This document shows, one piece after another, positions 472 through 10,877 of a DNA stretch of 56,168 nucleotides. The stretch's first letter is position 1; the number at the start of each line of letters is the position of its first letter. Made by a program: the position numbers and the translations under genes. The notes under the pieces are model-generated. The model saw only the letters and a list, made by a program, of their open reading frames with translations. It did no database searches and was not told the DNA's origin. Location of the stretch: assembly GCF_023243045.1 (NCBI RefSeq), contig NZ_JALKFX010000038.1, forward strand, positions 1 through 56,168. The letters run 5' to 3'. Origin of the DNA: Frankia sp. AgB32. Its GTDB lineage: Bacteria; Actinomycetota; Actinomycetes; Frankiales; Frankiaceae.

Positions 472-1866
472 TCAGGACGCTTCGCCGACGGTGCGGCTGG
501 AGCGGAAGACCCAGGCGCGCATCAGCAGGAAGCGGATGACAGTGGAGAGCAGGTTCGCCAGGACCAGCACCGTCACCTCCGGGCCGCGGCTGGGGTGGGA
601 GCGGCCCGCGTGCAGCGCGGAGAGCGAACCGCTGGTCAGCGCCAGCCCGATCGCGAAGACCACGAGGCCCTGCAGGTGGTGCCGGCCGGCCTGCTCGGGG
701 CCGGTGAGGCCGAAGGTCAGCCGCCGGTTCGCCGCGGTGTTCGCCACCGCGGTGATCAGCAGTGCCAGCAGGTTCGCCACCTGCGCGCCGGTGAACGACC
801 GCAGCAGCACGAACAGCAGCAGGTAGGCGAGCGTGCTGGCCACGCCGATCGCGCCGAAGCGCAGGAGCTGCCTCGGCAGCCCACGCGGCACTCCCGGCAC
901 CTGCACGCCGCCCCCCGATCCCGCTGAATCCGTGGACCCAATTTGCCCGTTGCCGGCGAGCGCGGAGCCGGCGGCTGCGGTCAGCGGTCCCCGGCCGAAC
1001 TCCCGGCGCAGGTCGGCCAGCGGCAACGCACCCGAGCCCAGCGCCTTGAGCAGCCGGGCGACGCCCCTGAGGTCGGCGATCGCCGTCGCGACCACGTCGA
1101 CGCGGCTGTCCGGGTCATCGACCCAGTCGACGGGAACCTCGTGGATGCGCATCCCGGCCCGTTCCGCGAGGACGAGCAGCTCCGTGTCGAAGAACCAGCC
1201 GGTGTCCTCGACCAGCGGCAGCAGCGCCGCAGCCGCCTCCGCGCGGATCGCCTTGAACCCGCACTGCGCGTCGGAGAACCGGGCGGACAGCGTCCCCCGC
1301 AGGATCATGTTGTAGCAGCGGGAGATGACCTCCCGGCGCGGCCCGCGGACCACCCGCGACGCCCGGGAGAGCCGGGTCCCGATCGCCAGGTCCGAATGCC
1401 CGGTGATCAGTGGCGCGACCAGCGGCAGCAGCGCGGCGAGATCGGTCGACAGGTCGACGTCCATGTACGCCAGCACCGGCGCCGACGACATGCTCCACGC
1501 GGCCCGCAGCGCGCGGCCGCGGCCCTTGGCGTCCAGGTGCACCACCCGCACGCCCGCCAGCTCCTCCTCCAGCGCCAGGGCGATGCCGAGGGTGTTGTCG
1601 GTGCTGGCGTTGTCGGCGACCGTGACCTGGAACGGGTAGGGAAAGGTGTCCCGCAGGTGCGCGTGCAGTCGCCGCACACACGGACCGAGGTCGTTCTCCT
1701 CGTTGTAGACCGGGACGACGACGTCCAGGACGGGGCTGGGATGGCCGCCGTCCGCCAGCGTCGCCGTGCCTGTGCTGACCAGCGCCCGCTGCCCGGCAAC
1801 GCGCTGCGCGGGGGCGGGAGCCGGCGCGGGGGTACCGGTCGCCTGGGATGGCATCCACGTCGTCAT
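472..1866 (-). CDS. Glycosyltransferase family 2 fused to GtrA-like membrane domain
   Basis: Predicted 464-residue polyprenyl-phosphate sugar transferase. Residues ~47-280 are a GT2 domain with DVVVPVYNEEN near the start and the metal-binding acidic motif DVDLST at ~136-141. Residues ~331-464 form a four-helix GtrA-like membrane domain. Such enzymes load a sugar onto a polyprenyl-phosphate carrier at the cytoplasmic face, and GtrA parts are thought to help flip it. The large GT39-type enzyme next door is a natural user of that donor. I chose ATG 1866 because an array of 11-bp repeats ends 22 bases before it, the same layout as at the two neighbouring starts. An in-frame GTG at 2007 has a good Shine-Dalgarno (AAAGGACGG) and would add 47 proline-rich residues, so it remains a serious alternative. 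Confidence 0.85.
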   Translation of the reverse strand: MTTWMPSQATGTPAPAPAPAQRVAGQRALVSTGTATLADGGHPSPVLDVVVPVYNEENDLGPCVRRLHAHLRDTFPYPFQVTVADNASTDNTLGIALALEEELAGVRVVHLDAKGRGRALRAAWSMSSAPVLAYMDVDLSTDLAALLPLVAPLITGHSDLAIGTRLSRASRVVRGPRREVISRCYNMILRGTLSARFSDAQCGFKAIRAEAAAALLPLVEDTGWFFDTELLVLAERAGMRIHEVPVDWVDDPDSRVDVVATAIADLRGVARLLKALGSGALPLADLRREFGRGPLTAAAGSALAGNGQIGSTDSAGSGGGVQVPGVPRGLPRQLLRFGAIGVASTLAYLLLFVLLRSFTGAQVANLLALLITAVANTAANRRLTFGLTGPEQAGRHHLQGLVVFAIGLALTSGSLSALHAGRSHPSRGPEVTVLVLANLLSTVIRFLLMRAWVFRSSRTVGEAS

Positions 1867-1888
1867 GCCACTCACTCTCGGTTCGCGA

Positions 1889-1932
1889 CCTGTGCCACCC
1901 GTGTGCCGATCCTGTGGGCCGCCTGTGAGGTG
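1889..1932 (-). promoter_or_regulatory. Four tandem 11-bp repeats upstream of the GT2/GtrA gene (response-regulator box)
   Basis: On the plus strand the units are CCTGTGCCACC, CGTGTGCCGAT, CCTGTGGGCCG and CCTGTGAGGTG, without gaps. All four have TGTG at positions 3-6. The two units farthest from the gene are the best, as at the other two arrays in this cluster. Head-to-tail 11-bp spacing is the usual site layout for OmpR/PhoP-family dimers. The array ends 22 bases before ATG 1866. Confidence 0.6.
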
Positions 1933-2077
1933 CGGGGTGTCATCACCCGCAGGTGGGCCCTCGGTGGACGGGTCGTTCTCGGCGGGATCATCGTCCGGAT
2001 CGGGCACGTCAGACCGTCCTTTCTCGCCGTTGCGCGGTTGCCTGCCGGGTCTGCCTTCGCGTCGGGGACGCGCCGAT

Positions 2078-2125
2078 GGCCGTGCGCTCCAGCCCGAGGG
2101 GGGAAGCGGGCTGGAGCGCACGGCC
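2078..2125 (-). terminator. Strong hairpin after the GT39 gene
   Basis: A perfect 19-bp inverted repeat (arms 2078-2096 and 2107-2125) with a 10-base loop lies 20 bases past the stop of the GT39 gene and before the GT2/GtrA gene. There is no U-tract, as is common in actinobacteria. It should end or attenuate GT39 transcription, leaving the GT2/GtrA gene to its own promoter. Confidence 0.75.
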
Positions 2126-2145
2126 GGTTCGGGCCGACCGAGGGG

Positions 2146-4515
2146 TCAGGTGGTCTGGGCGGTCGCGTCGGTGGAGGTGGTGGACGCGGCTGCCTTCGGG
2201 GCGGTCAGGTCGTAGAGGGTGACGCCGCCGACGGTCTTCGCGGTGAAGTTCGCCTCGATCCAGCTCGCGATGCTGCCGGAGTCGTTGCTGCCGCCGTTGG
2301 CCTGGCCGAAGCCGCCGCTGGCGATGAAGTAGTGGATCTTCTTCTCGCTGACGTACGTCTTGAACTGGTCGAGGCTCGGCGACGGGTCACTGCCGTTGAA
2401 GCCGCCGATCGGCATCACGGCCTTGCCGGTGGCGAGCTGGTAGCCGGCGGCGCTGTTGGAACCGACGGCCGCGGCGACCCAGGTGTAGCCGCTGGCGCCC
2501 GCCTTGAACAGGTCGACGATCTCCTTGCCGGGGGTGGCGGCGTTGAGCAGGCCGCCCCCGCCCATGCCGCCAGGACGAGCGGCCGTACCCGTACCGCCGG
2601 CGGCCGTGCCACCCTGGCCGGGAACCGTGCCCTGGCCACCCGCGGTGCCGCCCGGGAGGGTGCCGCCGCCGGGCAGTGCGCCGGCGCCGCCCTGGGCACC
2701 GGTTCCGCCCGGGCCGCCGAAGCCCGGGAATCCGCCGGCCTGGCGCTGGCCGAAGCCGCGGTTGGCGCCGTTTCCGCGCCGCCCGAAACCACCCGGGCCA
2801 CCGCCGAAGCCGCCGAAGCCGGCGCCGGCGGGACCCGCCGACGGGATCGAGCCGGTGTGCGGGGTCTGGGCGGTGGCGATCGTGTAGGCGCCCGGGCCGA
2901 ACAGGCCGGCGACGAGGGCCACGAGGGCGACGCCGAGCGCGGCGCGGCGCGGTAGCCGGATGGAGGCGAGGAAGCCGAGCGCCGCGATGATCCCGGCGAC
3001 GAGCACCACGTACCGGATCCACGGATGCCAGTCAGGCGTGCGGTTGAGCAGCTTGTACGACCACCAGGTCGTCATGCCGATGGCGGCCGCGCCGGCGACC
3101 GCGGCCACCGGGTTGCGCCGGTCGCGCCACAGCAGCACCGCGCCGATACCCACCACGGCGCCGATCGCCGGTGCGAGGGCCACCGTGTAGTACGGGTGGA
3201 AGATGCCCTTCATCTCGCTGAAGATCAGACCGGTGACGAGCAGCCAGCCGCCCCAGAGCACGAGCGCGGCCCGCAGCCGGTCCGTGCGCGGTGCCCGTCG
3301 AGTGAACCAGAGCCCGGCGACCAGAAGAATCAGCGCGGCCGGCAGCAGCCAGGAGATCTGGCCGCCGACCTCGGAGCCGAACATCCGGGTCAGTCCCGAC
3401 TGCCCCCACATGCCGCCGCCGCGTCCACCCGGTCCGCCGCCCGGTCCGCCGGGGCCCATGAAGGTGCCCGCGCCGCCGGCGGCGGCTCCGCCCGTCCCCG
3501 TTCCGCCCTGCAGTGCCTGGCCGGCCGCACCGGCCGCGGCGCGGCGCGCGGCGCCGCCACCTCCGGTGACGCTGCCGGTCTCGTTACCGGTGAGCCGGCC
3601 GAGGCCGTTGTAGCCGATGGTCAGCTCGAGCAGGCTGTTGTGCTGCGAACCGCCGATGTACGGGCGGGAGGACGCCGGCACGAGCTCCACGATCGCGATG
3701 AACAGGCCGGCGGGAACCAGCAGCCCGAGGCCGCCGAGGAGGGTGTCGCGCACCCGCTTCCGGAACGTCGCCGGCGCGAACGCCAGGTACACCAGCGCGA
3801 AGACCGGAACGACGACCAGCGCCTGGAGCAGCTTCGTCAGGAACGCGAAGCTGACGAACACCCCGGCGAGCACCATCCAGCGGGCGCTGGCGTTCTCGAC
3901 GGCGCGCAGCGTCGCGTAGGCGCCGCCGATGAGCAGCAGGACGAGCATCGCGTCCGGGTTGTTGAACTTGAACATCACCGCGGCGATCGGGGTGAGCGCG
4001 AGCACGGCCCCGGCGAGCAGGCCCGCCGCGGCGCCCGCGTACCGGCGCACCGTCTTGTACAGCAGCCCGACGGAGGCGACGCCCATCAGCGCCTCGGGGA
4101 CGAGGATGCTCCACGAGTTCAGCCCGAAGATCCGCGCCGAGAGGGCCATGACCCACAGCGACGCGGGCGGCTTGTCGACCGTGATCGAGTTACCGGCGTC
4201 CGAGGAGCCGTAGAAGAACGCCTTCCAGCTCACCGTGCCGGCCTGGACCGCCGCCGAGTAGAAGGAGTTCGACCAGCCGGAGGCGCTGAGGTCCCACAGG
4301 TAGAGCACCGCGGTGCCGATCAGCAGGACCGCCAGCGCGGGCAGCACCCAGCGGGGATCGCCGGCCTCACCGGCCTCGCCGGAATCGGTTTCGGTCGGCG
4401 CGTCCGGGTCGGCCGGTCGGGTCGGATCCGCCTTGGTCCACGGCATTCTGGGACGCGGCCCGCGGGCGGGCCGACCCCCGGCGTCGGGGATCGGGTCGGT
4501 GAGAGTCGACGACAT
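2146..4515 (-). CDS. GT39/ArnT-type membrane glycosyltransferase with Gly-rich extracellular insertions
   Basis: A 789-residue polytopic membrane protein of the PMT/ArnT superfamily (GT-C fold), expected to move a sugar from a polyprenyl-phosphate donor to an extracytoplasmic acceptor. After a disordered N-terminus and a first membrane helix, the first loop carries GNSITVDKPPAS, the conserved loop that contributes the catalytic acidic residue. About ten further hydrophobic segments follow. Two very Gly-rich low-complexity stretches (about 3400-3550 and 2560-2830) interrupt the membrane and C-terminal parts. The C-terminal ~120 residues look like a soluble extracytoplasmic domain. ATG 4515 fits a GGGAG Shine-Dalgarno and the repeat array that ends 21 bases upstream. 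It sits between its presumed partner (GT2/GtrA) and the two-component system. The acceptor is unknown. Confidence 0.9.
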   Translation of the reverse strand: MSSTLTDPIPDAGGRPARGPRPRMPWTKADPTRPADPDAPTETDSGEAGEAGDPRWVLPALAVLLIGTAVLYLWDLSASGWSNSFYSAAVQAGTVSWKAFFYGSSDAGNSITVDKPPASLWVMALSARIFGLNSWSILVPEALMGVASVGLLYKTVRRYAGAAAGLLAGAVLALTPIAAVMFKFNNPDAMLVLLLIGGAYATLRAVENASARWMVLAGVFVSFAFLTKLLQALVVVPVFALVYLAFAPATFRKRVRDTLLGGLGLLVPAGLFIAIVELVPASSRPYIGGSQHNSLLELTIGYNGLGRLTGNETGSVTGGGGAARRAAAGAAGQALQGGTGTGGAAAGGAGTFMGPGGPGGGPGGRGGGMWGQSGLTRMFGSEVGGQISWLLPAALILLVAGLWFTRRAPRTDRLRAALVLWGGWLLVTGLIFSEMKGIFHPYYTVALAPAIGAVVGIGAVLLWRDRRNPVAAVAGAAAIGMTTWWSYKLLNRTPDWHPWIRYVVLVAGIIAALGFLASIRLPRRAALGVALVALVAGLFGPGAYTIATAQTPHTGSIPSAGPAGAGFGGFGGGPGGFGRRGNGANRGFGQRQAGGFPGFGGPGGTGAQGGAGALPGGGTLPGGTAGGQGTVPGQGGTAAGGTGTAARPGGMGGGGLLNAATPGKEIVDLFKAGASGYTWVAAAVGSNSAAGYQLATGKAVMPIGGFNGSDPSPSLDQFKTYVSEKKIHYFIASGGFGQANGGSNDSGSIASWIEANFTAKTVGGVTLYDLTAPKAAASTTSTDATAQTT

Positions 4516-4536
4516 GGGATCACCGTGACTCCCAGA

Positions 4537-4580
4537 CCTTTTGTCTCCTTGTGCCTCACCTGTGAGGAACCTGTGAAGCG
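4537..4580 (-). promoter_or_regulatory. 11-bp direct repeats upstream of the GT39 gene
   Basis: On the plus strand the units are CCTTTTGTCTC (degenerate), CTTGTGCCTCA, CCTGTGAGGAA and CCTGTGAAGCG. The array stops 21 bases before ATG 4515. The two strongest units are gene-distal, exactly as at 1911-1932 and 7340-7361. This is the likely binding array for the OmpR-type regulator encoded at 6540-7295. Confidence 0.65.
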
Positions 4581-4623
4581 CGTCGGTGGGCCCCCGAACC
4601 ATCGACGGTCACGGGTGGAACGA

Positions 4624-4641
4624 CGCGGGGACGGCCCCGCG
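4624..4641 (-). terminator. Short GC hairpin after the histidine kinase gene
   Basis: CGCGGGG, an ACGG loop and CCCCGCG form a perfect 7-bp stem 36 bases past the stop of the histidine kinase gene (4678). It lies before the GT39 promoter region, so it may insulate the two transcripts. Confidence 0.45.
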
Positions 4642-4677
4642 GAACACCATGATCGTCTTCTTTGGGCCCGCCGCCAG

Positions 4678-6534
4678 TCAGATGTGGCGGCTGGACGCGG
4701 CGGGTGGGGGCGCCAGCGGAGGAAGGATCGGGCGGGTCGGGCGATCGACCGTGAGCGGTGGTGCCCCGGCCCGCAGCGCTGGCGGGAAGCCCGCCGTCGG
4801 CGCGACCCGCGGCGTAGGGTTCGCCGCCAGGTCCAGCGGTCCGCCCTCGGATCCCACGGCCGTGGCGGGCCGCGTCTGGGGGAGACGCACGATGAAGGCC
4901 GTGCGGCCCGGCCGGCTCTGCGCCTCGACCCGGCCATGGTGCGCTTCGACGACGGCGGAGACGATCGCGAGGCCGAGGCCGGTACTGCCGGCGGCGCGGG
5001 AACGCGAACTGTCGCCGCGGGCGAACCGCTCGAACACCTGGGGCAGCAGCTCCGGGGAGATGCCGGGACCTTCGTCGACGATGGCGATGACGACCTCGCC
5101 GTCGGCCAGGCTCAGGCTCGCCGTCACCCTCGTCTCCGGTGGGGTGTGGGTGCGGGCGTTGGCCAGCAGGTTCGCGACGACCTGGTGCAGCCGGGCGGAG
5201 TCGCCGGTCACCGTGACCGGTTCCTCGGGCAGGTCCAGGGCGAAGCGGTGCTCGGGCGCGGCGACGTGCGCGTCGCTGACGGCGTCGACGACCAGCCGGG
5301 AGATGTCCACCGGCTCGTGTTCCAACGGTCGGCCGGAGTCGATCCGGGCGAGCAGCAGCAGGTCCGAGACCAGCGCCGTCATCCGCGCGCTCTCCGACTC
5401 GACGCGGCTCATCGCGTACGTGACGTCCGCCGGCACCGGCTCGTGGGTGCGCCGGGTCAGTTCCGCGTAGCCGCTGATCGCGGCGAGCGGGGTGCGCAGT
5501 TCGTGGCTGACGTCGGCGAGGAACTGCCGCATCCGCATCTCGCTGGCATGCCGGGCTTCCAGCGCCCCGCCGATGTGCCCGAGCATCCGGTTGAGCGCCG
5601 CGCCGACCTGCCCGACCTCGGTCCGCGGGTCGGTGTCGACCTCCGGCACCCGGACGGACAGCGCCACCTCGCCGCGGTCCAGCGGCAGCTCGACGACCCG
5701 CGACGCGGTCGCCGCGACCCGGCGCAACGGCCGCAGCGTCACTCTGAGGATCACCGTGCCCGCGACCGCGGCGAACGCCACTCCCGCGAGCGCGACCACG
5801 CCGCTGACCACCGCCATCCTGGTCAGCGTCGCGTTGATCTGCTTCATCGGCAGCGCGGTGACCAGCGTCAGGCCGTTCGGCTCGGTGATGGCGACCAGCC
5901 GGTACTCATCGGAGCCGAGCGTGTCGGTGTGGAATCTCCCGTCCCGCGGCACCGCGGCCACGGTGGTGCTCTGGCTGGTGGTGAGCTGCTGGGCCGATTC
6001 CTCGGAGTCGAGGTACGCGGCGTAGGTCCCGGTGGCGTCGATGACGGCGGCCACCGTGCCCGGCTCGACCGGCCCGCGGAAGAACGCGGTGAGCAGGGTG
6101 GCGGCCGTCGCGCTGTACAGCGTGTTCTGCAGGGCCGTCGTGGTCTGCAGCGAGGTGCGGACGCCGTAGCCGGCGCCGTAGCCGTAACCCGTGCCGTTGC
6201 CGGAATCCTGCCCGGACGAACCGCCAGATCCCGAACTGCCGCTGGGCGGCAGGCCGCCGTCCGGCGTCGGATCGAACGGCCCGGCCAGAATCCGGCCCCA
6301 CCTGCCGCTGGCCTCACCCAGCCGGCGGTCGAGCTGGTCAAGCAGCACGCCGCGCAGCGCCACCGCCGTGATGAACACGATCGCCATCGACACGGTCGCG
6401 AGCAGCACCATGAGCAGGGCGATCAGCCTCGTGCGCAGAGACCACCGCGACGGCGCCATCGTCCGCCCGCGCCGGGATCGACGGCGTCCGCCCGGACGGG
6501 CTGGAACCACATCGGGATGCTGCGCGGTGGCCAT
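4678..6534 (-). CDS. Sensor histidine kinase (OmpR-system partner)
   Basis: A 618-residue transmembrane histidine kinase. It has a membrane helix at ~36-60, a large extracytoplasmic sensor region (~61-235) with a Gly/Ser/Tyr-rich patch, and a second helix at ~240-265. A HAMP linker follows, then HisKA with SHELRTPL (His344 is the phospho-acceptor), and an HATPase_c domain with the N box (VVANLLANARTH), G1 (DEGPGIS) and G2 (GSTGLGLAIV). The C-terminal ~75 residues are Pro/Ala-rich tail. The gene begins 5 bases after the response regulator stop, so the pair is co-transcribed. The neighbourhood suggests that it senses envelope or sugar-polymer status and controls the two glycosyltransferases. 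The signal itself cannot be read from the sequence. Confidence 0.95.
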   Translation of the reverse strand: MATAQHPDVVPARPGGRRRSRRGRTMAPSRWSLRTRLIALLMVLLATVSMAIVFITAVALRGVLLDQLDRRLGEASGRWGRILAGPFDPTPDGGLPPSGSSGSGGSSGQDSGNGTGYGYGAGYGVRTSLQTTTALQNTLYSATAATLLTAFFRGPVEPGTVAAVIDATGTYAAYLDSEESAQQLTTSQSTTVAAVPRDGRFHTDTLGSDEYRLVAITEPNGLTLVTALPMKQINATLTRMAVVSGVVALAGVAFAAVAGTVILRVTLRPLRRVAATASRVVELPLDRGEVALSVRVPEVDTDPRTEVGQVGAALNRMLGHIGGALEARHASEMRMRQFLADVSHELRTPLAAISGYAELTRRTHEPVPADVTYAMSRVESESARMTALVSDLLLLARIDSGRPLEHEPVDISRLVVDAVSDAHVAAPEHRFALDLPEEPVTVTGDSARLHQVVANLLANARTHTPPETRVTASLSLADGEVVIAIVDEGPGISPELLPQVFERFARGDSSRSRAAGSTGLGLAIVSAVVEAHHGRVEAQSRPGRTAFIVRLPQTRPATAVGSEGGPLDLAANPTPRVAPTAGFPPALRAGAPPLTVDRPTRPILPPLAPPPAASSRHI

Positions 6535-6539
6535 CCGAT

Positions 6540-7295
6540 TCAGATCCGGCGGGCCGCGGACGAGGTGGAGACCGAACCGGCGGACAGCGCGGAGTCGGCC
6601 GCCGCCTCCGCGGGCCGCAGCACGTAGCCGGCGCCACGCATCGTGTGGATCATCGGGGATCGACCAGCGTCAATCTTCTTGCGCAAGTACGAGACGTACA
6701 GCTCGACGACGTTCGCCTGGCCGCCGAAGTCGTAGTTCCAGACCCGGTCGAGGATCTGGGCCTTGGAGAGCACCCGGCGCGGGTTGCGCATGAAGAAGCG
6801 GAGCAGCTCGAACTCGGTGGCCGTCAGGTGCACCGGGACGCCGGCGCGCTCTACCTCGCGGCTCTCCTCATCCATCGTCAGATCGCCAACCATCAGCCGC
6901 GCACCCTGCAACGCCTCCGCGCTGCGCGCCGCCCGCCGCATCAGCCCGCGCAGCCGTGCGACCAGCTCCTCCAGGCTGAACGGCTTCGTCACGTAGTCGT
7001 CGCCGCCAGCCGTCAGCCCGGCGACGCGGTCCTCGACGGCGTCCCGGGCGGTCAGGAACAGCACCGGGACGTCCGGGCTCTCCGCCCGCAGCCGCCGCAG
7101 CACCTCCAGCCCATCCATGTCCGGCAGCATGATGTCGAGCACCACCGCGTCGGGCCGGAACTCCCGCGCCAGCCGGAGCGCGGTGCGTCCATCCCCCGCA
7201 CTGCGCACCTCCCACCCCTCGTAGCGCAGCGCCATCGACAGCAGCTCCGCCAGTGTCGTCTCGTCGTCCACCACGAGTACCCGCACCGGTTGCAT
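6540..7295 (-). CDS. OmpR-family response regulator
   Basis: A 251-residue regulator. The receiver domain (1-~120) has acidic residues Asp10/Asp11, phospho-acceptor Asp54 in VVLDIMLPD, Thr82 and Lys104. The winged-helix DNA-binding domain (~133-228) has the usual LTATEFELLRF and GAGYVL signatures. It resembles the mycobacterial TrcR/MprA branch, but I do not assign a symbol. It is the first gene of the regulator-kinase operon. Its own promoter carries the same type of 11-bp repeats as the two glycosyltransferase genes, which predicts autoregulation. ATG 7295 is preceded by GAGGGA as a possible ribosome binding site. Confidence 0.95.
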   Translation of the reverse strand: MQPVRVLVVDDETTLAELLSMALRYEGWEVRSAGDGRTALRLAREFRPDAVVLDIMLPDMDGLEVLRRLRAESPDVPVLFLTARDAVEDRVAGLTAGGDDYVTKPFSLEELVARLRGLMRRAARSAEALQGARLMVGDLTMDEESREVERAGVPVHLTATEFELLRFFMRNPRRVLSKAQILDRVWNYDFGGQANVVELYVSYLRKKIDAGRSPMIHTMRGAGYVLRPAEAAADSALSAGSVSTSSAARRI

Positions 7296-7317
7296 ACGGG
7301 ACAGCGTCCCTCAGGTG

Positions 7318-7361
7318 CCTAGCCGTTGCCTAAGCCTTGGCTGTGAACTTCCTGTGAGCGT
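7318..7361 (-). promoter_or_regulatory. 11-bp direct repeats upstream of the response regulator gene
   Basis: The plus-strand units are CCTAGCCGTTG and CCTAAGCCTTG (degenerate), then GCTGTGAACTT and CCTGTGAGCGT. The array ends 22 bases before ATG 7295. Read on the gene strand, the two good units give TCACAGG and TTCACAG spaced by 11 bp. The proximal units contain CTAGGC, which could serve as a -10 element. Confidence 0.6.
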
Positions 7362-7440: not shown

Positions 7441-8786
7441 GTGCAACTAGATGAAGCTTTGGACGCATTGGGTCAGATGCGGAGAGCATCCGCCCAGGGT
7501 CGACCGCTACCGCATCAACCTCTGACGCTGCTCTGGGCAGTGGCACGCCTGAGCGAGAAGATCCGACTGATCAGGTGGTCGGACGTGCGAGATGATCTGG
7601 CAGCTGAACTCGCCGCACGCGGTGGTGCGCCCGGCGAACGGCCGGCGCCGGAGTTCCCGGTCGTGGCCCTGCGGAACTCGCCGCTGTGGGAGATCCGGGC
7701 CAGTTCCGAGGTGCCACCTGCGCACGGCTCGCGGACTCGCAGATGGTTGGATGACGAGGATCCTGAGTTCGGGCTCTCGACGGCGGCCTACGAGCTCCTC
7801 CAAGATATCTCTAGTCGCGAACGATTCGTGGCTGCACTCAATTCACTGATCGATTCCTCGGTTGTCCCTGGTCCTCGGCATGATGGCGAGTGGGATATTG
7901 CTCTCGGTGAAACGTTGCGCCGAGTTTCTGTGCATTCAAAGTATGGCGGAAATCGTCAATCTGGTATATCTCCATCGGCGCAAAGTAGAAATATCCTCCT
8001 CTTTTCGATCTCATCAAGGGGCGCCAGCACGGATATTTTGATGGCTGGGGAGACGATGGCGCCTTTCATTACACTGGAACCGGTCAAAATGGCGATCAAA
8101 GAATGGACGGGGATAATCTCGCCATTCTGCAACATCGAGGTTCGGGGCGCGCGCTCAGATTGTTTCAGGCCGTCAAAAGGGGCTTGGTGCAGTACTCTGG
8201 AAAGTTCGTGCTGGACTCCGACTTCCCTTCCTACACCAGCCGGGCACCATCCACAGGGGGTGGGCGGTGGCGATCGGTCATCGTCTTTCGTCTCCGCCCG
8301 GAGGGTGAAATATATGAGGGCGTGACAGCGATTCCGGCTGGCGGCGACGCGCCCAGCCAAGTGGTATCCATACCGCTTGAACTTTCGCACACTCCTAGCT
8401 ATGAGGTAACTAGGCCGACGGAAAGTGGAATGGTGGTCCGTCGGGAGGGTAAGCTCGTCCACGAGTATGCTGGTTATTTGCGGTCACTTGGTCACGTGGT
8501 TTACCGAAACAGCATCCGCCCAGCCGGCGAGTTGGGTCCTTTATTGACTGATCTTTACGACGAGACGACCGGCGATTTGGTGGAAGCGAAAAGTGTTGTT
8601 ACGCGCGACGTTGTGCGAATGGGGGTTGGGCAACTGCTTGACTATCGGCGGTTTATAGAGCCAACTCCCAGGCTTAACCTCCTGGTTTCGGCGAAACCTC
8701 GGCCGGACCTGCTAGATTTTTGTGCCAGCGTCAATGTCACCGTTATTTGGCGGACTGATTCTTCGTCGGGGTGGGATCACAGCTAA
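7441..8786 (+). pseudogene. ScoMcrA-like restriction endonuclease (PD-(D/E)xK), interrupted by one frameshift
   Basis: The N-terminal half is read from GTG 7441 in one frame: PLTLLWAVARL, then FPVVALRNSPLWEI, then SKYGGNRQSGISPSAQ. The rest continues one base back from about 8002-8006: HGYFDGWGDDG, YTGTGQNGDQ, then GKFVLDSDFP, RWRSVIVFRLRPEG. The C-terminal nuclease core has TDLYDE (Asp at 8550) and VEAKSVVTRD (Glu/Lys near 8583-8591), then MGVGQLLDYRRF. Joined, this gives ~448 residues with the layout of HNH/McrA-type modification-dependent endonucleases that have an EVE/SRA-like middle domain and a PD-(D/E)xK-like C-terminus. Restoring one T in the TTTT run at 8002-8005 rejoins the frames. 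It may be a pseudogene, a phase-variable gene or a sequencing error. Base and codon use is clearly less GC-rich than the neighbours, suggesting transfer. Confidence 0.7.
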
Positions 8787-9377
8787 TCGGCGGTGAGGGT
8801 TACCACGCTTCCCCGGCCGCTGGATCCTATGGATACGGACATCGAGCCGCCAGAAGGGCCGTCGCGCCCTTCTGGCCGGCACCAACCCGCGCACCGTGAG
8901 CGCGACCGTCGGCGGCCTGACCGTCCCGGCTGCGGCGGGTACCGCGCGTCTCGACGGGGACCGGTTCGGCTCGCTGCTCGTCCGGGCCGGGGCCGAACAG
9001 CCCCTGTCGGCGCGGGTCGAGGCGGACACGGTGAACGTGATCGCCGGCACCGGGCGGGCCGCACCCGTTAGCCGCCATCGCGCTGACCCCGGCGGCGGTG
9101 TCGGGCTCGACCGGGGATCGTCCGCGCTGGCTGCTCCGACATTGACACGCCTCACGGTGACGACTGGCCCGGACGTGGGTCCCGACCGGGCCACTGGCAG
9201 CGGACCCGTTCGCGACGGTGTTGATCTCGTCGCTCGGGGGTGAGGAGGCGGCGGGCCAGCCGGTACCCGGCTGACAGTCCGAACTTCCTGGGGGCACGGT
9301 GTGATCTGTCGCGAGGGTGACCACCAAACTGCCCCCTAAGAGAGGGTTCATCAGGCCAAACTGGGTACGTGCACCGC
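8787..9377. other. Intergenic stretch with no confident gene
   Basis: Apart from the hairpin at 8849-8876, I see only a short plus-strand reading frame of about 115 codons from a GTG at 8896. Its translation includes VSATVGGLTVPAAAG and LSARVEADTVNVIAG, and it drifts into unlikely sequence after ~9060. It could be the eroded end of an older gene, but I recognise no family and do not call it. Confidence 0.4.
8849..8876 (+). terminator. Hairpin after the endonuclease gene
   Basis: GCCAGAAGGG, an 8-base loop and CCCTTCTGGC form a perfect 10-bp stem 62 bases past the stop codon at 8786. It is a likely terminator for the endonuclease gene. Confidence 0.5.
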
Positions 9378-9941
9378 ATGGCTCGACACCGTCGTCCTCA
9401 GTCCGCCGGTCATGGCGCGCGCTCCCGCGTTGCGCGCCGGGTGGTACTGCCTGCCGCCACCCTTCTCACCGCGGGAGTTGTCACCGTGGGTACTGCGTTC
9501 GCCTGTCCCGGATCCTCCGCCGCGACCACGCGGTCCACCGCCGCCGCTGCTGGCAACGGCGCTGTCATCGCGACTCCAGTGCGGGCCGCCGATACCCGCT
9601 CACCGTCCACGACCGATGCCGACGCCATCGCCGAAGCGGTTCGCGGCAGTCAGTACACCGCCGCCGTCCCGGCGACGAACTACCAGGTCACCGGCACGGT
9701 GCTGGCGGCCAGCGACCCGAGCTGGGCCCTCACCGAGCTGGAACCGACGGTCGAGGACCTCGACCGGGCGGAAGGCCTGGTGCACCGCACCCCCGCCGGG
9801 TGGGAGCTCGTCCAGGTCGGCACCTACGAGGTCGGCTGCGGCGTTGCCCCCAGCGCGGTGCTCGACGACTTCGGCCTGCAGTGCCCGCCCCCGGAGGGGA
9901 CGACCACCGCTCCCGCCGCGGACGACGCCCAGCCCGCCTGA
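9378..9941 (+). CDS. Secreted protein of unknown function
   Basis: A 187-residue protein with an Arg-rich start, a hydrophobic segment (VVLPAATLLTAGVVTVGTAF) and a probable signal-peptide cleavage region after it. Next is an Ala/Thr-rich linker, then a compact domain of ~100 residues (DAIAEAVRGS, DPSWALTELEP, GWELVQVGTYEVGC, VLDDFGLQCP). The two Cys of that domain could form a disulfide outside the cell. Short exported proteins with a conserved xDPSWA and a Gly-Cys-Gly near the end are common in actinomycetes, but I know no function for them. ATG 9378 is chosen; an in-frame GTG at 9369 is possible. Reading in another frame across 9412-10167 gives no protein-like sequence. Confidence 0.65.
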   Translation: MARHRRPQSAGHGARSRVARRVVLPAATLLTAGVVTVGTAFACPGSSAATTRSTAAAAGNGAVIATPVRAADTRSPSTTDADAIAEAVRGSQYTAAVPATNYQVTGTVLAASDPSWALTELEPTVEDLDRAEGLVHRTPAGWELVQVGTYEVGCGVAPSAVLDDFGLQCPPPEGTTTAPAADDAQPA

Positions 9942-9978
9942 GGTCCCTCGGATCTTCCGCGAGCCTCGGCACGGCCTT

Positions 9979-10043
9979 CAACGCTCCCGTCCACCGGGGG
10001 CGTTGCCCGTTTCAGGGCCCCCACTCCGCTCGTTCGGGGGCCC
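9979..10043 (+). terminator. Two consecutive hairpins after the secreted-protein gene
   Basis: Stem 1 has arms 9979-9989 and 9995-10005 (11 bp with one G-U pair, 5-base loop). Stem 2 has GGGCCCCC (10015-10022) and GGGGGCCC (10036-10043). The first begins 37 bases after the stop codon at 9941. Together they look like a tandem terminator. Confidence 0.55.
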
Positions 10044-10124
10044 GACGGAGGATGCTTGTTCCGTCAACGGTCGTCCTCGGACGAGGGACGAGGACCCGGG
10101 AGCAGCGAGCGGGAGGCGTACCGC

Positions 10125-10877
10125 ATGCCAGTCACCGAACTCGACATCCACACCTCCGACGGAGTGATGGATGTCCATCTCCACACCCCGGACGCCGGTC
10201 GTGCGGACGCCGCCGGGCCGCTGCCCGTGGCGATCCTCTACCCGGACGCCGCCGGGGTCCGCCCGGTCGCCCACGAGATGGCCCAGCGCCTCGCGGCCGA
10301 AGGCTACGCCGTGGCGCTCACGAACTACTACTACCGTTACGGCCCGTTCACCTTCGACCTCACGACGGCCTTCCGGGACCCGGACGAACGCGCCAAGGTC
10401 ATGACCAGGCTGGCGCAGGCCGACCCGCAGTCGGTCGTGCGGGACACCGCGGCGCTGCTCGACGTCCTCGCCCCCCGCGACGACCTGCGCACGGACCGGG
10501 TCGGCGCGTACGGCTACTGCCGCGGCGGCCTCATGGCGTTCACCCTGGCGGGGGCGCTGCCGGAGCGTGTCGCTGCCGCCGCGTCGTTCCACGGCGGCGG
10601 CATCGCCACCGAGGAGCCGACCAGCCCGCACCACCGCGCCGGCGACATCCAGGCCGCGCTCTACTTCGGCATCGCCGCCGACGACCGCACCTGCACCCCG
10701 GAGCAGCAGAAACTGCTGATCGCCGCCCTCGACGCGGCCGGCGTCCGCTACGAACTCGAGCAGTACGACGCCCCCCACGGCTTCGCCGTCCCCGACCACG
10801 TCGGCGCCTACGACGAGGCCGCCGCCGCCCGGCACTGGGAGAAGCTCACCGAGCTGTTCGCCCGCGAACTCCGCTGA
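10125..10877 (+). CDS. Dienelactone hydrolase family protein
   Basis: A 250-residue cytoplasmic alpha/beta hydrolase of the dienelactone hydrolase family. The nucleophile elbow is GAYGYCRGG, so Cys132 replaces Ser, as in true dienelactone hydrolases. The acid is expected in the YFGIAADDRTCTP segment and the His in DAPHGFAVP near the C-terminus. Family members hydrolyse lactones or activated esters, but no aromatic-degradation genes lie nearby, so the substrate is open. ATG 10125 is supported by a GGGAGG Shine-Dalgarno 8 bases upstream; an earlier in-frame start would add 23 unlikely residues. The gene converges on tcmP with a 31-base gap. Confidence 0.9.
   Translation: MPVTELDIHTSDGVMDVHLHTPDAGRADAAGPLPVAILYPDAAGVRPVAHEMAQRLAAEGYAVALTNYYYRYGPFTFDLTTAFRDPDERAKVMTRLAQADPQSVVRDTAALLDVLAPRDDLRTDRVGAYGYCRGGLMAFTLAGALPERVAAAASFHGGGIATEEPTSPHHRAGDIQAALYFGIAADDRTCTPEQQKLLIAALDAAGVRYELEQYDAPHGFAVPDHVGAYDEAAAARHWEKLTELFARELR

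Follow-up and report, generated by a model that had tools for sequence, protein, structure and literature searches.

Four-unit repeat arrays at a fixed distance from start codons: putative operators of a PhoP-like regulator and two envelope glycosyltransferase genes in Frankia sp. AgB32

In a 56,168-nucleotide stretch of Frankia sp. AgB32 (NCBI RefSeq assembly GCF_023243045.1, contig NZ_JALKFX010000038.1, positions 1 to 56,168, forward strand; hereafter the window), three genes are each preceded by an array of four 11-bp units: a response regulator gene, a gene for a YkcB-like membrane glycosyltransferase of family GT39 and a gene in which a GT2 glycosyltransferase is fused to a GtrA domain. 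Which protein reads these arrays, and why do they keep their distance from the start codons? Judged from sequence comparisons, all three are likely to be operators of the PhoP-like regulator encoded at 6540–7295, which would activate leaderless promoters of its own operon, of the GT39 gene and of the GT2/GtrA gene.

The arrays had been reported in a first-pass annotation, and their coordinates (Table 1), the count of four units and the gaps of 22, 21 and 22 nt to the ATGs at 1866 (GT2), 4515 (GT39) and 7295 (regulator) were reproduced exactly when the window was rescanned. All three lie on the minus strand in the orientation of their genes, and each unit holds a TCACAGG-like 7-mer. Read on the gene strand from distal to proximal, the 7-mers are TCACAGG, TCACAGC, GCTTAGG and GGCTAGG before the regulator gene, TCACAGG, TCACAGG, GCACAAG and CAAAAGG before the GT39 gene, and TCACAGG, CCACAGG, GCACACG and GCACAGG before the GT2 gene. 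The annotation had described the two gene-distal units as the strongest, which applies to the GT39 and regulator arrays and not to the GT2 array, where the most proximal unit (6/7 matches) equals the second. When the whole window was scanned for two TCACAGG units at an 11-bp period, 13–14 of 14 matches were reached at the three arrays only. The pattern TCACAGSNNNNNCACAGS occurs six times in the 6.68-Mb genome, and three of these occurrences are the window arrays.

Conservation was assessed in 13 genomes of the genus, that of the window included, using a two-core test (two TCACAG cores at an 11-bp period, at least 11/12 matches, scored per upstream region). On the sense strand, the motif was found in 13/13 regulator, 13/13 GT39 and 12/12 GT2 upstream regions; the antisense and within-gene controls both gave 0/38. 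The enrichment before orthologues on which the annotation had staked its claim is therefore present, and the self-regulated OmpR-type regulon with both glycosyltransferases that it predicted gains support from these sense-strand arrays before all three genes. Mean pairwise identity among congeners was 0.94–1.00 for units 1–2, 0.82–0.96 for units 3–4, 0.63–0.84 for the spacers and 0.34–0.38 for the 44 bp upstream of the array. Exact matches to TCACAGSNNNNNCACAGS numbered 58 in the 13 genomes, and 42 of them could be assigned (13 before the regulator, 13 before GT39, 11 before GT2, 5 at a second locus described below).

The array observation reaches further than had been stated. The fixed element consists of the array, 9 bp, a −10-like hexamer NANNNT, 6 or 7 bp and the start codon. 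For the hexamer test, arrays with at least 10/12 core matches were admitted (at least 11/12 for the genus glycosyltransferase arrays) and lower-scoring rows were excluded. NANNNT starting 9 bp after unit 4 was found in 106 of 135 distinct arrays, not all independent as some come from related genomes (36/37 in the genus, 70/98 elsewhere in Actinobacteria), and for no other offset between 0 and 25 did the count exceed 11 of the 135. Of 104 rows with the hexamer, 101 have an open, in-frame start codon 6 or 7 nt beyond it; 15 further regulator rows lack the hexamer at that spot, and 9 of these have a start at 6–8 nt, the other 6 not. In many relatives the layout start lengthens the regulator's N-terminus, by up to about 90 residues. 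In the genus, the in-frame start lies 7 nt after the hexamer in 12/12 GT2 rows, which supports the annotation's choice of 1866 as the start of the GT2/GtrA gene.

Apart from a missing first T, the three window hexamers fit a −10 element; the end of unit 3 falls where a −35 element would be expected. A putative activator site in place of −35, at a spacing of 9 bp in most of the distinct arrays, is the arrangement of a class II promoter. The fixed distance is most likely explained by leaderless promoters at which a PhoP-type activator would substitute for the −35 element, as Escherichia coli PhoB does: the array-to-ATG distance is constant because the ATG sits where transcription should start. 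A comparable geometry is given in the cited parts of two sources: the boxes of E. coli PhoB stop 10 bp short of the downstream −10 element (PMC1906773), and for lipF and pks2 of Mycobacterium tuberculosis a class II mechanism in which PhoP covers −35 has been proposed (PMC3413638).

The regulator consists of a Response_reg receiver domain and a DNA-binding winged-helix Trans_reg_C domain (Pfam). Among solved structures, it matched M. tuberculosis PhoP best (E-value of about 2e-86), followed by PrrA (3e-61), RegX3 (8e-49) and MtrA (1e-48), and it scored 218.2 bits against a cut-off of 296.2 bits for the PhoB equivalog TIGR02154. In the passages of PMC4832192 cited here, the PhoP site is TCACAGC-N4-TCACAGC, a direct repeat whose spacer is strictly 4 bp long; PhoP holds on more tightly to three or four motifs in tandem than to a pair, and TCACAGC is read in the PhoP–DNA structure by the side chains of Asn212, Val213, Glu215, Ser216, Tyr217 and Tyr220. 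The aligned recognition helices are NVVELYVSY in the window regulator and NVVESYVSY in PhoP; in the structure alignment, five of the six base-contacting residues are kept and Ser216 is replaced by Leu. The window arrays have the format of a PhoP target, being direct repeats of TCACAGC-like 7-mers with a 4-bp spacer and thus the same 11-bp period. Such arrays are the expected target of a PhoP-type protein.

Outside the genus, the two-core test was positive on the sense strand in 28/106 regulator, 4/34 GT39 and 24/32 GT2 regions; antisense it gave 0/34 for GT39 and 0/32 for GT2, and nothing inside genes. A full-layout test was then defined by units 1–2 with at least 9/12 matches, all four units with at least 15/24, the hexamer and a start codon, within 350 bp. 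In the genus, 12/13 regulator, 12/12 GT2 and 13/13 GT39 regions carry the full layout in sense, and 29/32 GT2 regions do so outside it; antisense, it was seen in 2/106 non-genus regulator regions and in none of the other sets, and inside genes not at all. When 108 non-genus loci, every one chosen for holding a regulator homologue, were scanned on both strands, 92 full sites were obtained, of which 82 lead directly into a regulator (45), GT2 (30) or GT39 (7) gene. Array, hexamer and in-frame start precede the regulator in, among others, Streptomyces, Actinomycetospora, Kineococcus, Microlunatus, Amycolatopsis, Sanguibacter, Microbacterium, Nocardia, Pseudarthrobacter, Gordonia, Actinoplanes, Rhodococcus, Micromonospora and Kribbella. 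Seven genomes of genus g6 (L057–L062, L064) have the GT39 gene behind the GT2 gene and show arrays at the GT2 and regulator promoters only; the array therefore goes with the promoter and not with the gene.

The other ten full sites outside the genus (in L180, L192, L210, L071, L076 and others) lead into genes whose products match none of the four window proteins; several of these products have, by eye, an N-terminal membrane segment. Such sites may mark additional cargo of related modules or have arisen by chance. In four loci of genus g2 (L050, L051, L052 and L053), at about 9170–10330, a second unit pair faces away from the regulator, toward a divergent reading frame.

Three other explanations were weighed. 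That the arrays are chance resemblances among degenerate 11-mers, or a dispersed repeat with no role, draws on the 16 of the 58 exact TCACAGSNNNNNCACAGS matches in the genus that are not tied to the regulator, GT39 or GT2 genes; a reversed control pattern gave 9 matches vs. 58, and the restriction to the sense strand in the genus, the fixed spacing and the conserved units between diverged flanks led to its rejection as exceedingly improbable. A different OmpR-family protein, above all MtrA, might bind the arrays, the neighbouring regulator being merely one target. To our knowledge MtrA is near universal in Actinobacteria; its site contains GTCACA and so resembles the arrays, and three more regulators of the genome, with E-values of 1e-74 to 1e-70, could serve as other binders of this family. 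A binder of the MtrA type is nevertheless improbable, as the full layout before the regulator fades with identity to the window regulator, from 35/49 at 70% or more through 5/19 at 60–70% to 5/38 below 60%, and as the window regulator itself misses the NCBIfam MtrA equivalog cut-off (205.3 vs. 300 bits). Three genomes of genus g3 (G023, G026, G029; same family; 81–88% complete) point the same way. None of them yielded a regulator match stronger than about 1e-76 (for G023, nothing at 1e-60); GT39 and GT2 homologues are nevertheless present, with 43–66% identity in the best segments, and no array was found at 9 distinct GT2/GT39 places (11 overlapping loci, both strands) in these incomplete assemblies, whose homologues may be paralogues. 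Two g3 genomes with the regulator do carry arrays (L056, L063); in G027, which also lacks it, the GT39 gene is cut at the contig end and is uninformative on arrays. The absence of arrays where the regulator is absent supports the window regulator as the probable binder.

Were the window regulator the binder, it could still act as a repressor, since the array runs into the −35 region and ends 9 bp short of the hexamer, and the bound protein would cover the promoter and block the polymerase. The lack of a −35-like hexamer at its expected place and the poor −10 suit an activator better, and the spacing matches that of the activated PhoB boxes; repression is thus judged unlikely, if somewhat less so than binding by MtrA or a relative. 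Several findings weigh against activation by the window regulator as well. Relative to the consensus −10, the hexamer is missing its first T. Among non-genus regulator regions, the two-core test was positive in antisense in 11/106; the full layout was found in only 45/106 of these regions and 6/34 GT39 regions, with thresholds chosen after the pattern had been seen. The autoregulatory sites of M. tuberculosis phoP, in the work cited in the relevant part of PMC3413638, lie downstream of +1, unlike the window layout.

Activation by the PhoP-like regulator would proceed as follows. The phosphorylated protein would line up head to tail on the arrays, each 11-bp unit taking one subunit, with one dimer on the strong distal units 1–2 and then a second on the weaker units 3–4, in place of −35. 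From that position it would recruit RNA polymerase to the poor −10 (NANNNT) 9 bp downstream, and transcription would start at, or within about one base of, the start codon, which would yield a leaderless mRNA and the fixed array–ATG distance. The predicted targets are the regulator's own operon, with its kinase, and both components of a system for envelope glycosylation, in which GT2/GtrA would charge and flip a lipid-linked sugar and the YkcB-like GT39 enzyme would transfer the sugar outside; the two-component system would thereby tune sugar modification of the envelope.

The switch itself is of a known kind, with direct repeats of the PhoP/PhoB type. With M. tuberculosis PhoP it shares regulator family, recognition helix, motif and 4-bp spacer, and also the class II position proposed for lipF and pks2; it differs in its targets (the regulator itself, GT39 and GT2/GtrA) and in its layout, with four units whose distance to a probably leaderless start is constant. 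Like the E. coli pho box, as far as it is covered in the part of PMC1906773 used, the arrays are direct repeats in tandem that have an 11-bp period and end just upstream of −10 (at 9 instead of 10 bp), whereas the motif and the leaderless geometry are different and no phosphate genes were seen in the window regulon. A GT-A enzyme, a GtrA-type flippase and a GT-C transferase (Pfam) are encoded together here, as components of multi-component transmembrane glycosylation. The same set is described for Bacillus subtilis YkcB/YkcC and CsbB/GtcA/YfhO in the sections cited of the review PMC8035078, where the function of YkcBC is listed as unknown; the window GT39 protein shares the YkcB_C domain with YkcB. 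Unlike in B. subtilis, GT2 and GtrA are fused in the window and the set adjoins a PhoP-like two-component system. No description of the regulon or of its rigid layout was found in the open-access literature searched, most subscription journals lying outside the search.

A widespread PhoP-like two-component system, itself not found described in that literature, would in this way acquire a concrete regulon made up of its own genes and a YkcB/GtrA-type pair for envelope glycosylation. Its promoter grammar would be precise enough to predict, from sequence, which genes are targets, where transcription begins and which start codons are the true ones. It would also offer a non-pathogen setting in which to study RNA polymerase activation by tandem PhoP-family oligomers in Actinobacteria, as well as the control of leaderless genes. 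Whether the layout (four 11-bp units, 9 bp, NANNNT, 6–7 bp, leaderless start codon) is a PhoP-family promoter format across Actinobacteria, used by several paralogous two-component modules, every one of which controls its own operon together with a small private cargo, appears to us evenly balanced. If it is, one activator tetramer would set both the transcription and the translation start, and the private cargo would be an envelope sugar-transfer system here and ferric-reductase-like or other membrane genes elsewhere.

Table 1. Positions of the arrays, hexamers and genes within the window
Feature	Position	Strand	Remarks
Array before regulator gene	7318..7361	-	four 11-bp units; kept in 13/13 genus genomes
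Array before GT39 gene	4537..4580	-	four 11-bp units; kept in 13/13 genus genomes
Array before GT2/GtrA gene	1889..1932	-	four 11-bp units; present in 12/12 GT2 upstream regions of the genus
−10-like hexamer GACGCT	7303..7308	-	9 bp after unit 4, 7 bp before regulator ATG
−10-like hexamer CACGGT	4522..4527	-	9 bp after unit 4, 6 bp before GT39 ATG
−10-like hexamer GAGAGT	1874..1879	-	9 bp after unit 4, 7 bp before GT2 ATG
PhoP-like OmpR/PhoB-family response regulator, probable (putative) binder of the arrays	6540..7295	-	Pfam; best solved-structure matches M. tuberculosis PhoP
Histidine kinase	4678..6534	-	Pfam; 5 bp after regulator
YkcB-like GT39 (GT-C) membrane glycosyltransferase	2146..4515	-	PMT_2 + YkcB_C (Pfam); conserved start
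GT2 glycosyltransferase fused to GtrA domain	472..1866	-	Pfam; start 1866 conserved

The GT39 start was placed at 4515 and not at 4602, the first ATG of the frame, on the basis of its conservation in relatives. The histidine kinase gene follows the regulator gene after 5 bp and has no array of its own, so that both probably belong to the same operon. Upstream of the regulator gene, two overlapping frames (7441–8325 and 8103–8786) lie in a region, 7441–8786, with 57.7% G+C vs. 72.3% for the whole window; this is possibly an acquired, perhaps frame-shifted gene.

Arrays of the same kind also occur away from the regulator, at a second locus. In G003 and G009 the array starts 61 nt before a second GT2 gene, whose product in G003 is 71% identical to that of the window over 262 residues and is followed by a second GT39; in G006 it starts 62 nt before a second GT39 gene. 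In G007 the second-locus array is present, but the 3-kb stretch gave neither a GT2 nor a GT39 gene. The same layout before GT2/GT39 paralogues away from the regulator gives independent support for the regulon. In the genome of the window, 27 loci (20, plus C2, C11, C195, C198, C213, C242 and C254), part of 72 places, were screened for two units with at least 10/12 matches, units 3–4 with at least 5/12, and the hexamer, and only C242 passed. There (L005, 5011–5073 and 5172–5315) the array, a −10-like hexamer GACCGT and the ATG are kept and GT39 is reduced to a 48-residue C-terminal piece, while G003, G009 and G006 retain GT2 and/or GT39 at this place; C242 is a relic promoter of the second locus.

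Two other sites were not taken as regulon members. C254 (L001, 6065–6082) is a perfect two-unit site between two glutamine-synthetase genes at which the full layout is absent, and C198, a site between two genes that we take to be kdpA and kdpD from their translations, failed the screen. C11 (L006, about 4850–4910, minus strand) scored below the screen's threshold; by eye, it reads TCTGAGG, TCACAGG and TCCCAGG at an 11-bp period, then 9 bp, CATCGT, 7 bp and ATG. This similar layout precedes a ferric-reductase-like gene near a paralogous regulator (52% identity) and kinase, and C11 is possibly a sister module built on this promoter format.

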